Shown here: one piece after another, positions 34,256-36,741 of the stretch
Position numbering within the stretch: position 1 is the stretch's first letter
Layout of the letters: each line of letters starts with the position of its first letter
DNA from: Sulfolobaceae archaeon
Lineage (GTDB): Archaea; Thermoproteota; Thermoprotei_A; Sulfolobales; Sulfolobaceae
Direction: 5' to 3'
Assembly: GCA_026627305.1 (NCBI GenBank)
Contig: JAPNVD010000008.1
Span: 1 to 64,000, forward strand
DNA length: 64,000 nucleotides
Program-made: the position numbers and the translations under genes
The notes under the pieces: generated by a model
The model's database searches: none
What the model saw: only the letters and a program-made list of their open reading frames with translations
What the model was told of the DNA's origin: nothing

Positions 34256-34302
34256 CTTTTAAGAAATGCGAATAAGCTTTAACGCAGGAGGCTGGTAAGT
34301 TG
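34256..34302 (+). promoter_or_regulatory. Promoter, Shine-Dalgarno and original TTG start of the ABC ATPase gene
   Basis: CTTTTAAG at 34256-34263 is the likely TATA box. GGAGG at 34287-34291 stands 8 bases before TTG at 34300-34302, a textbook spacing, yet that TTG frame stops four codons later (TAG at 34312-34314), while the conserved ABC reading frame is one base away. The signals therefore mark a start that no longer joins the gene body. Confidence 0.6.
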
Positions 34303-34379
34303 GAAGAATCTTAGAAGGTATAAATTTAGCATATAGCTATGATGGTAGGTCCCTCATATTTGAGGATGTTAACATATAT

Positions 34380-35081
34380 GTGGGAGATTACGAATTAATA
34401 GCTATCGTGGGACCTAGCGGTATAGGAAAATCAACCCTCCTACGTATTCTCGGTGGATTCATAAAACCGATAAGGGGAGAAGTAAGATTATTGGGCAAGA
34501 AAATAATTAAGCCCACACCTAAAATAGCCCTAATTCATCAAGCTATCGTCACCTTTCCCTGGATGTCTGCATTAGAGAATGTCAAATTAGGTTTAAAATA
34601 TAGGAATTTGCCGAAGGAAGAAGAGGATAAGATTGCCAGAAAGATGTTAGAAATCGTAGGTTTAGGAGGTTTTGAGGATCTATCTCCTAAGCAGATGAGT
34701 GGAGGCATGAGACAAAGGGTAGCAATAGCTAGAGCATTAGCAGCAGATCCTCTAGTACTCCTAATGGATGAGCCATTTTCACACTTAGACGAGTTAACAG
34801 CTGAAGGTATAAGGCAGGAAGTCTATTCCATGATTTTCAATAAAGATACGACATTGAGAGGAGCAGTATTAGTATCACATAACCTAGATGAAGTAGTAGA
34901 ATTGGCTGATAGGATCTATGTCATAAACGGTTCTCCTGCCACAGTTGTCGGTGAAATAAAGGTTGAACTGGAGAGACCTAGAAGATCTAAGGATCCTAGA
35001 TTCCAGGAATACCTTGACCAGTTATATAAACTCTTGACTCCAGTTAAAAAGCCAGTAGTCAGCGGTGATAAGAATGAATAA
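34380..35081 (+). CDS. ABC transporter ATP-binding protein (NitT/TauT type), start region disrupted
   Basis: ATPase of a nitrate/sulfonate/bicarbonate-type importer. Seen: Walker A GPSGIGKST, Q-loop LIHQAIVTFPW, signature MSGGMRQR, Walker B VLLMDEPFSHLDE and the switch His in VLVSHNLDE. Conserved coding continues upstream of GTG 34380: codons 34299-34379 read VGRILEGINLAYSYDGRSLI and then FEDVNIY, the usual first strands and A-loop Tyr, but contain no start codon. The Shine-Dalgarno-led TTG at 34300 is one base out of frame. Either one base was lost, a -1 frameshift is used, or a shortened protein is made from 34380. It overlaps the permease gene. Confidence 0.85.
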   Translation: MGDYELIAIVGPSGIGKSTLLRILGGFIKPIRGEVRLLGKKIIKPTPKIALIHQAIVTFPWMSALENVKLGLKYRNLPKEEEDKIARKMLEIVGLGGFEDLSPKQMSGGMRQRVAIARALAADPLVLLMDEPFSHLDELTAEGIRQEVYSMIFNKDTTLRGAVLVSHNLDEVVELADRIYVINGSPATVVGEIKVELERPRRSKDPRFQEYLDQLYKLLTPVKKPVVSGDKNE

Positions 35082-36687
35082 CATATATTTAACGCTTGTA
35101 CTAGCAACACTTGCTACAACAGGGAGAGTATGGCTAACAATAGGTCTCTCCATAGTAACTGGGTGGTTTTTAGGCTATATCGCTGTAAAGAATAGAGGTT
35201 TCGAGAACGTATATATATCATTTATAGAGGTTTTTGAGTCAGTTCCAGTTATAAGCTTCTTCCCCGTGGTTTTAATCTTCTTCATTTATAGAATTGGAGG
35301 TTATTTGGGCATAGAAATGGCTGTAGATTTTTTAGTTTTTACAGCAGTAGTCTGGAATATTTGGGTTGGGATATATCAGGCTTATAAAACCATTCCTGAA
35401 AATTTTTTAGAAGTAGTGGAAAATTATAGGTTAGGATTTCTTAGGAAATTTACAACGCTATATATACCATACTCCATGCCTAGGATTGCCGCAAACTTAA
35501 TCCCAAGCTTCGCTGATGCGTTCTTCTATATAACCGTAAGTGAGGTATTTTCTATAGGTACATCAGCATATCATGTTTTCGGCATTGGAGCAATTCTAGC
35601 TGAGCTAGTGAGTGAGGGAAGATATAATTTAGTACTAATAGGTTTAGGAATTCTTGCATTTGATACTACGTTAACTACATTCTTCCTTAGAAGATTTGCA
35701 ACGTATACCGTAGAACGTTATGGTATAGACACTGAAATAAAGACATATAAAAGAGGAAAGCCAAGAACCAGATATAATTTAAGGCTTACTAACACTTTAA
35801 CTACAGTAAAGAAGATTGCAAGCGCATTCTTGCCACCTAAAAAATATTATGATATATTAGCTGAGGAAAAGGAGAGAAATTATCACTTAAGGGAGATCGG
35901 TTATGCTTTGGCTTTCTTAGTTGTGGGTATAGTCTCTTATGGTGTTTTTACTACTGTCAAAAGTATAAGCGCTCATGAATGGTTTTCACTATTAGCTAAT
36001 ACACCATCGATGCTTTTAGGTTTAGCTGTAGATTATGCAAGGGTCGCTATTATAGCAATAATTTCATTCGTTATAGCAATATTCGTAGGATATTTACTTG
36101 CAGCGCATAGTCTAGCGGAAAAAATTGTAATACCTATAATTCAAGCAATAGCAGCATTTCCTGCTCCTGCTTATTTTCCACTACTTTTTGCCTCCACTTA
36201 TGTAATAGTTAGGGGAATCTTTGATCCATTAACAAATGAATTTTATGTATTATTATTAGGATTTATATCAACATTCTACTATGTATTTTACAGCTTCTGG
36301 TTAGGGGTGAAAAATTTACCATCAGAGTACTGGGAACTAATGGAGAACTTAAACTTAACCTTTTGGCAAAAACTTAGGAAAATAATATTGCCTGCAACGT
36401 TTCCATACATTGTAGCTGGTATTTCAAGTACTATTAATAGCGCGTGGGGAGGTCTAGCTATAGGAGAATATTGGCCAGATATCTATAACGGTTATACACT
36501 TCAAGTAAGGACAGGTTACATGAAAGATATAGCAGTTTACACGGATAGTGGTAACATAGCGTTTGCCGCTTGGTCTTCATTCCTGTTCGGGATAATAGTA
36601 GTTATATATTCAATACTCTTTACGAGGAAGCTCATGGACTTAGCGAGGAAAAGATATATAGCTGAGGAAGGAATATATGCGGCTTAG
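35074..36687 (+). CDS. ABC transporter permease, two fused membrane domains (NitT/TauT type)
   Basis: A 537-residue permease made of two BPD_transp_1 modules in tandem, each about 250 residues with its own EAA-like loop: YKTIPENFLEVVENYRLGFLRKFTTLYIPYSMP in the first, NLPSEYWELMENLNLTFWQKLRKIILPATFP in the second. One chain thus supplies both halves of the channel. ATG 35074 is used because GGTGA lies 5 bases before it; it overlaps the ATPase gene by 8 bases. No solute-binding protein gene adjoins. Substrate unknown; anions such as nitrate or sulfonates are the family norm. Confidence 0.88.
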   Translation: MNNIYLTLVLATLATTGRVWLTIGLSIVTGWFLGYIAVKNRGFENVYISFIEVFESVPVISFFPVVLIFFIYRIGGYLGIEMAVDFLVFTAVVWNIWVGIYQAYKTIPENFLEVVENYRLGFLRKFTTLYIPYSMPRIAANLIPSFADAFFYITVSEVFSIGTSAYHVFGIGAILAELVSEGRYNLVLIGLGILAFDTTLTTFFLRRFATYTVERYGIDTEIKTYKRGKPRTRYNLRLTNTLTTVKKIASAFLPPKKYYDILAEEKERNYHLREIGYALAFLVVGIVSYGVFTTVKSISAHEWFSLLANTPSMLLGLAVDYARVAIIAIISFVIAIFVGYLLAAHSLAEKIVIPIIQAIAAFPAPAYFPLLFASTYVIVRGIFDPLTNEFYVLLLGFISTFYYVFYSFWLGVKNLPSEYWELMENLNLTFWQKLRKIILPATFPYIVAGISSTINSAWGGLAIGEYWPDIYNGYTLQVRTGYMKDIAVYTDSGNIAFAAWSSFLFGIIVVIYSILFTRKLMDLARKRYIAEEGIYAA

Positions 36688-36741
36688 AGTGCTGAGGAAT
36701 CCGGGACCTGATTAATGAAGAAATGCGCGAGCACTGAGCCT
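36688..36741 (+). ncRNA. C/D box guide RNA (candidate)
   Basis: In the 61-base gap after the permease stop: weak C box CTGAGGA 36692-36698, D' CTGA 36708-36711, C' ATGAAGA 36715-36721, D CTGA 36734-36737. Guides: ATCCGGGAC (9 bases) and AATGCGCGAGCA (12 bases), complementary to GTCCCGGAT and TGCTCGCGCATT; targets not recognised. A T-rich run, CCTTTTTCTTTC, follows and may end the transcript. The C box deviates from RTGATGA at two positions, so confidence is lower than for the other guide RNAs. Confidence 0.6.

Follow-up and report, generated by a model that had tools for sequence, protein, structure and literature searches.

An ABC transporter ATPase gene with a conserved out-of-frame start in thermoacidophilic archaea: a candidate for programmed -1 frameshifting at the second codon

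Analysis of a 64,000-nucleotide stretch of archaeal DNA (referred to here as the window) revealed an ABC transporter ATPase gene whose Shine-Dalgarno-preceded start codon is one base out of frame with the conserved protein. The same arrangement was found in 40 of the 41 genomes of the clade and the synonymous sites of the start motif are frozen, which places it far beyond chance. Judging from the compared sequences, we consider it fairly probable that translation initiates at this codon (DTG, i.e. ATG, TTG or GTG) and that a programmed -1 ribosomal frameshift follows at the very start of ATPase translation. The ribosomal nature of the shift, its location on codon 2, the participation of the Shine-Dalgarno sequence and a purpose in low or regulated transporter output are what we infer from the evidence presented below.

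The features of the locus are collected in Table 1. As stated in the initial annotation, GGAGG (34287) and TTG (34300) lie at an ideal distance from each other, and the frame opened by this TTG is closed after four sense codons. The observation that the ABC strands run in the neighbouring (-1) frame was also borne out. This frame opens on the G of TTG (GGA AGA ATC TTA GAA GGT ATA AAT; GRILEGIN...), terminates with TAA at 35079-35081 and contains no ATG, GTG or TTG upstream of GTG 34380.

Table 1. Features of the ATPase start region and the adjacent permease gene in the window
Feature	Position	Strand	Remarks
TATA-box-like element CTTTTAAG of the conserved AAAAGCTTTTAAGAA-type promoter	34256..34263	+	same place in most family orthologues
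Shine-Dalgarno GGAGG	34287..34291	+	8 nt 5' of TTG
Initiation codon TTG	34300..34302	+	DTG then GAA at the same place in 40/41 clade genomes
0-frame micro-ORF TTG GAA GAA TCT TAG (MEES, stop)	34300..34314	+	four sense codons
Proposed -1 shift site G-GAA	34302..34305	+	P-site tRNA-Glu would re-pair from GAA to GGA
ABC ATPase (NitT/TauT type), GRILEGINLAYSYDG...	34302..35081	+	-1 frame; PF00005
GTG, first in-frame canonical start (codon 27)	34380..34382	+	position not conserved as a start
Two-domain ABC permease (PF00528)	35074..36687	+	ATG overlaps the ATPase stop (ATGAATAA)

The TATA-like box ends approx. 36 nt 5' of the DTG, and the AAAAGCTTTTAAGAA form is found in most orthologues. Given this distance and the usual spacing of 25–26 nt, the transcript is expected to begin at about position 34286, directly ahead of the Shine-Dalgarno sequence, with a short leader. 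The box and the Shine-Dalgarno sequence together mark the DTG as the first start codon of this leader. In many orthologues the Shine-Dalgarno sequence is GGTG which, where present, is usually located 5–6 nt before the DTG, and in most genomes the initiator Shine-Dalgarno lies 5–9 nt before it. In-frame GGTG-ATG/GTG starts found by the same pattern have a spacing of 5–8 nt, and the spacing of the DTG falls within this range.

Each of the family's 31 species genomes, which represent 11 genera, contains the ATPase gene, and in 30 of them DTG-GAA stands at exactly -1 to the ABC frame. The arrangement is repeated in all nine second-family genomes carrying the ATPase (55–65% identical) and in one genome of a third family (L108). 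A 0-frame stop follows after 4–6 sense codons in all 40 cases, the orthologue micro-peptides being MEQS, MEEY, MEQY, MEERY, MEQF, MEEC, MEERPP, MEERVP and MEERH. The interval from the DTG to the [IV]LE strand varies (5, 8, 11, 29, 53 or 56 nt), and every one of these values is 2 modulo 3. Named members of the family include Metallosphaera and Candidatus Aramenus, and among the genomes compared are those that we take to be S. acidocaldarius, S. tokodaii, M. sedula and M. cuprina. The exception within the family is L026, which has no GAA codon (TTG CAA TCC), keeps the frame relation and carries an in-frame ATT at Shine-Dalgarno distance. In the second family ABC codon 3 is GTT, GTG or ACG, with DTG-GAA unchanged.

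A point deletion or a sequencing error was among the options initially listed for the out-of-frame start, and the assembly from which the window derives is 79.5% complete and divided into 41 contigs. This option was refuted by the same frame relation in 40 genome records, many of which are finished in a single contig, and its probability is now negligible; the orthologues, in which one extra G after TTG G was to be looked for, all lack it.

In a phylogenetic tree, the 39 sequences of the first and second families form one group, apart from the homologues in the remaining families of the order; most of these homologues start in frame in the ordinary way. In a more widely sampled tree, the lineages f70, f15 and f22 g105, whose starts are arranged differently, were placed among or beside these two families and the base was poorly resolved, so that the age of the arrangement and the number of its origins are not settled.

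The start motif is under strong constraint at the nucleotide level. TGGAA is invariant in the 39 tabulated sequences and also in L108; base +7 is A in all 39 (T in L108), and G occupies position -1 (window 34299) in 36 of them (GDTGGAA). The rows share descent, and the counts are therefore not independent, but when other columns of the same gene, which have equal descent, are used as a control, GGA turns out to be the only codon used for the Gly that overlaps the start (29 of 29 aligned sequences; no codon exceeds 17/30 in 15 other conserved Gly columns), and the Leu codon with its next base forms a 0-frame stop in 28 of 30 (0–25 in other Leu columns). The codons of the Ile column are ATC (23 cases) and ATA (6 cases), never ATT. 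As in programmed -1 frameshifting, two overlapping frames, of which the downstream one is -1, encode one conserved protein, and a conserved frame arrangement is combined with extra nucleotide constraint at the site.

The same alignments bear on the possibility that translation of the functional protein begins internally, for example at GTG 34380, where the window has its first canonical start in this frame, and that the first strands are missing. This position is not conserved as a start among the orthologues. In L026, L030, L051 and L053 the first in-frame ATG, GTG or TTG occurs at codon 50, 65, 75 and 45, respectively, i.e. past the Walker A lysine (codons 42–44). In addition, ABC codons 3–26 are under coding constraint in the ABC frame: the share of synonymous single-base codon differences is 67% in this frame, as against 25% for the DTG frame and 10% for the remaining one. 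These patterns indicate that the ABC frame is translated from near the DTG, upstream of any in-frame canonical start, and a truncated protein, which had been listed among the initial options, is very improbable as a general solution.

In the frameshift model, the Shine-Dalgarno sequence would set the ribosome on the DTG (TTG 34300) and GAA would be decoded. With tRNA-Glu in the P site, the ribosome would then move back by one base and the tRNA would re-pair on GGA via one central G.U pair, after which reading would continue with AGA/ACA-ATC-CTA-GAA... to give Met-Glu-Arg/Thr-Ile-Leu-Glu-... Ribosomes that fail to shift would release a peptide of 4–6 residues at the nearby stop and might rebind at the same site. 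The expected N-terminus in Metallosphaera sedula would be METILEGINLAFQYPNNYR, and the tryptic peptide expected for S. acidocaldarius is ILEGINLGYAYVDANFVFR. We place the shift between the DTG and approximately the seventh base, since everything beyond varies in sequence and length, and the re-pairing of the P-site tRNA-Glu from GAA to GGA would account for the fixed G, G, A and A. The product TTG-GAA-AGA-ATC proposed in the initial annotation is thus the favoured one, whereas its slip site, GGAAGAA, is not: the conserved core is DTG-GAA-SA, with C at the seventh base in 12 of the 39 sequences. An X-XXY-YYZ slippery heptamer, which is usual but not obligatory, is absent, and G-GAA-GAA or G-GAA-CAA permits re-pairing in the P site only. 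Re-pairing in the A site would be poor, and we therefore do not envisage a classical tandem slip.

A downstream stem-loop stimulator is likewise usual but not obligatory for such events, and no consensus pairs indicative of a conserved RNA structure were detected across 18 aligned leaders. The backward pull may come from the pairing of the initiator Shine-Dalgarno, still stretched across the first codons. Such pairing has been reported to be maintained during translocation over several nucleotides, and in one IS element a single Shine-Dalgarno acts as both initiator and frameshift stimulator (PMC5009743), which suggests the same double role in the ATPase leader. Ordinary genes (L085, L088, L089, L090, L092 and L097) also start with a Shine-Dalgarno sequence and DTG GAA GAR, with frame 0 open; the motif alone is therefore not sufficient, or the shift is inefficient. 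It is probably a minority event, which would suit a transporter of low output.

Several observations do not fit this model easily. It does not require the conserved early stop, the preference for ATC or the G at -1, and leaves the G and the choice of this rare Ile codon unexplained; in L026, the motif is replaced by TTG CAA and an in-frame ATT. The G at -1 in 36 of 39 sequences and the retention of the frame relation in L026 without a GAA codon could be accommodated by a shift on the initiation codon itself, in which the initiator tRNA on the DTG is followed by reading of the overlapping G-GA (G-CA in L026), or of GA as a doublet, to yield Met-Gly-Arg/Thr-... or a similar two-residue start (MGTILEG... 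in M. sedula). The initiator tRNA, however, pairs poorly with the NDT triplets at the -1 position, the in-frame ATT can account for L026, and the route gives no reason why both A residues of GAA are invariant; we regard this route as improbable.

Two further candidates were rejected. Initiation at the non-AUG in-frame triplet under the start can be dismissed, as this triplet varies (GAT, GTT, AAT, GGT or ATT) and is mostly not a near-cognate. The motif is also not a scattered DNA or RNA operator, since the frequency of DTGGAASAATHYTRR at other genomic sites is only about that of its reversed control.

The main competitor of a shift on codon 2 is termination–reinitiation, in which the micro-ORF is translated completely and the small subunit restarts a few bases back, at the near-cognate ABC codon 3 (mostly ATC or ATA; ACG, GTG or GTT elsewhere), producing Met-Leu-Glu-... 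The 0-frame stop, located 4–10 nt past the start of codon 3, looks selected for, as this route would predict, and termination–reinitiation is documented in archaea by work cited in PMC7531240. In the f31 relatives an ATT or ATC is retained in frame at Shine-Dalgarno distance, for the most part with no canonical start, and the equivalent Val codon of the sister lineage f22 g105 is GTG; function is thus compatible with a start that omits the Met-Glu-Arg/Thr segment. On the other hand, codon 3 is not kept (GTT in L051–L053, ACG in g2/g33), and it lies approx. 13 nt from the Shine-Dalgarno GGTG, beyond the range of direct initiation. A canonical main-ORF start near the stop of the upstream ORF is absent, codon 3 being ATC, ATA, ACG or GTT in nearly all genomes and GTG only in L054 and L055, and the invariant DTG-GAA is dispensable to reinitiation. 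As a general solution, restarting at AUC/AUA was favoured on the first family and weakened by the GTT, GTG and ACG of the second. Reinitiation, which would predict the N-terminus MLEGINLAFQYPNNYR in M. sedula and the peptide MLEGINLGYAYVDANFVFR in S. acidocaldarius, is on balance rather unlikely. Programmed -1 frameshifting, one of the options of the initial annotation, thus stands as the leading reading beside this reinitiation or near-cognate-start rival.

According to a 2021 review of archaeal recoding, one cellular -1 frameshift has been reported, in the alpha-L-fucosidase gene fucA1 of Saccharolobus solfataricus, where the slip sequence A-AAA-AAT lies far inside the gene and the frames overlap by 40 bases; in other Sulfolobales the gene is intact (PMC8211752). 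Frameshift cases in archaeal viruses and a predicted case in a magnesium chelatase are also mentioned in the archaeal recoding literature. Like fucA1, the ATPase is a cellular gene of a related archaeon in which the frame changes by -1, and its expression is presumably low as well. Its site, however, falls on codon 2, departs from the classical heptamer and has been retained in different families. As in the bacterial Shine-Dalgarno-stimulated -1 shifts (dnaX, IS elements), a Shine-Dalgarno lies upstream of the site and a 0-frame stop is nearby; unlike them, the ATPase leader has neither an A-rich heptamer nor a detected downstream structure, and its only Shine-Dalgarno is that of the initiator.

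A short 0-frame ORF, a conserved stop and conservation across a wide clade are shared with the autoregulatory frameshift of prfB (release factor 2). The prfB shift is +1 and takes place at a stop codon approx. 25 codons into the gene, whereas that proposed for the ATPase is -1, is not at a stop and has no obvious feedback. The micro-ORF and its conserved stop overlapping the main frame are also reminiscent of uORF-coupled termination–reinitiation, from which the ATPase differs in that the junction lacks a canonical start codon in most species.

If the model is correct, it adds a new start-proximal and phylogenetically conserved variant to -1 recoding in archaea. A case involving about 40 species, in organisms for which cultures and genetics are available, would show that recoding is selected for rather than incidental, and would make the mechanism, i.e. 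a Shine-Dalgarno pull at codon 2 on a non-classical slip site, testable. Gene finders must annotate these ATPases with a wrong start, and scans for frameshifts will probably overlook the case, since shifts less than 50 nt from the start escaped the large GeneTack screen (PMC3711429). We found no published description of this ATPase gene in the literature searched, with most subscription journals outside its coverage. In its broadest form, a proposal that we consider evenly balanced, a start-proximal -1 shift driven by the initiator Shine-Dalgarno on the invariant DTG-GAA would be an ancestral and obligatory step in the expression of a transporter operon in thermoacidophilic Thermoproteota, and the group's first known case of cellular -1 recoding with phylogenetic conservation, with relatives reaching a similar "handicapped start" via conserved AUU/AUC start codons.

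The ATPase is that of an ABC importer of the NitT/TauT type; it carries an ABC_tran domain (PF00005) with Walker A and signature motifs, and its best matches are CmpD, NrtD, SaoA and TauB; the nearest solved relatives are CmpD and nitrate transport ATPases. Every NCBIfam equivalog listed scored under its cut-off, so that no single curated equivalog, and with it no substrate, can be assigned. The overlap of the permease ATG with the ATPase stop suggests that the permease is probably translationally coupled to the ATPase. An Rfam sR33 C/D-box RNA (44.9 bits; window 36685-36739) starts on the permease stop codon.

Other start arrangements were noted in relatives. The ATPase homologues of family f31 (L113, L115–L117, L120, L121, L124–L128, L130 and L131) keep an in-frame ATT (GCA/GCC) or ATC (CCA) 5 nt after GGTG, and most have no in-frame ATG, GTG or TTG from this codon to the [IV]LE strand (ATG occurs in L116, L125 and L126); they likely use a conserved AUU/AUC start codon, which is itself unusual. 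In L109–L112 (f22 g105, sister in the tree of f6, the second family) an upstream, apparently leaderless ATG opens a +1 frame, and the TGA that closes this ORF overlaps a GTG that is in frame and encodes the Val of VLEG; the lineage seems to have taken another route, with a canonical start at that Val codon. In L031 (G007) the ABC frame is additionally broken approx. 150 nt from its beginning, close to a run of G (GGGGGCTTCC), which is attributable to sequencing error or decay. Finally, a distant homologue, L047 (G054), reads GTG CGT GGA TAT TAG with the ABC frame at -1 (ATA TTA GTA GAG), which suggests that a further family either has this architecture or uses an AUA start.
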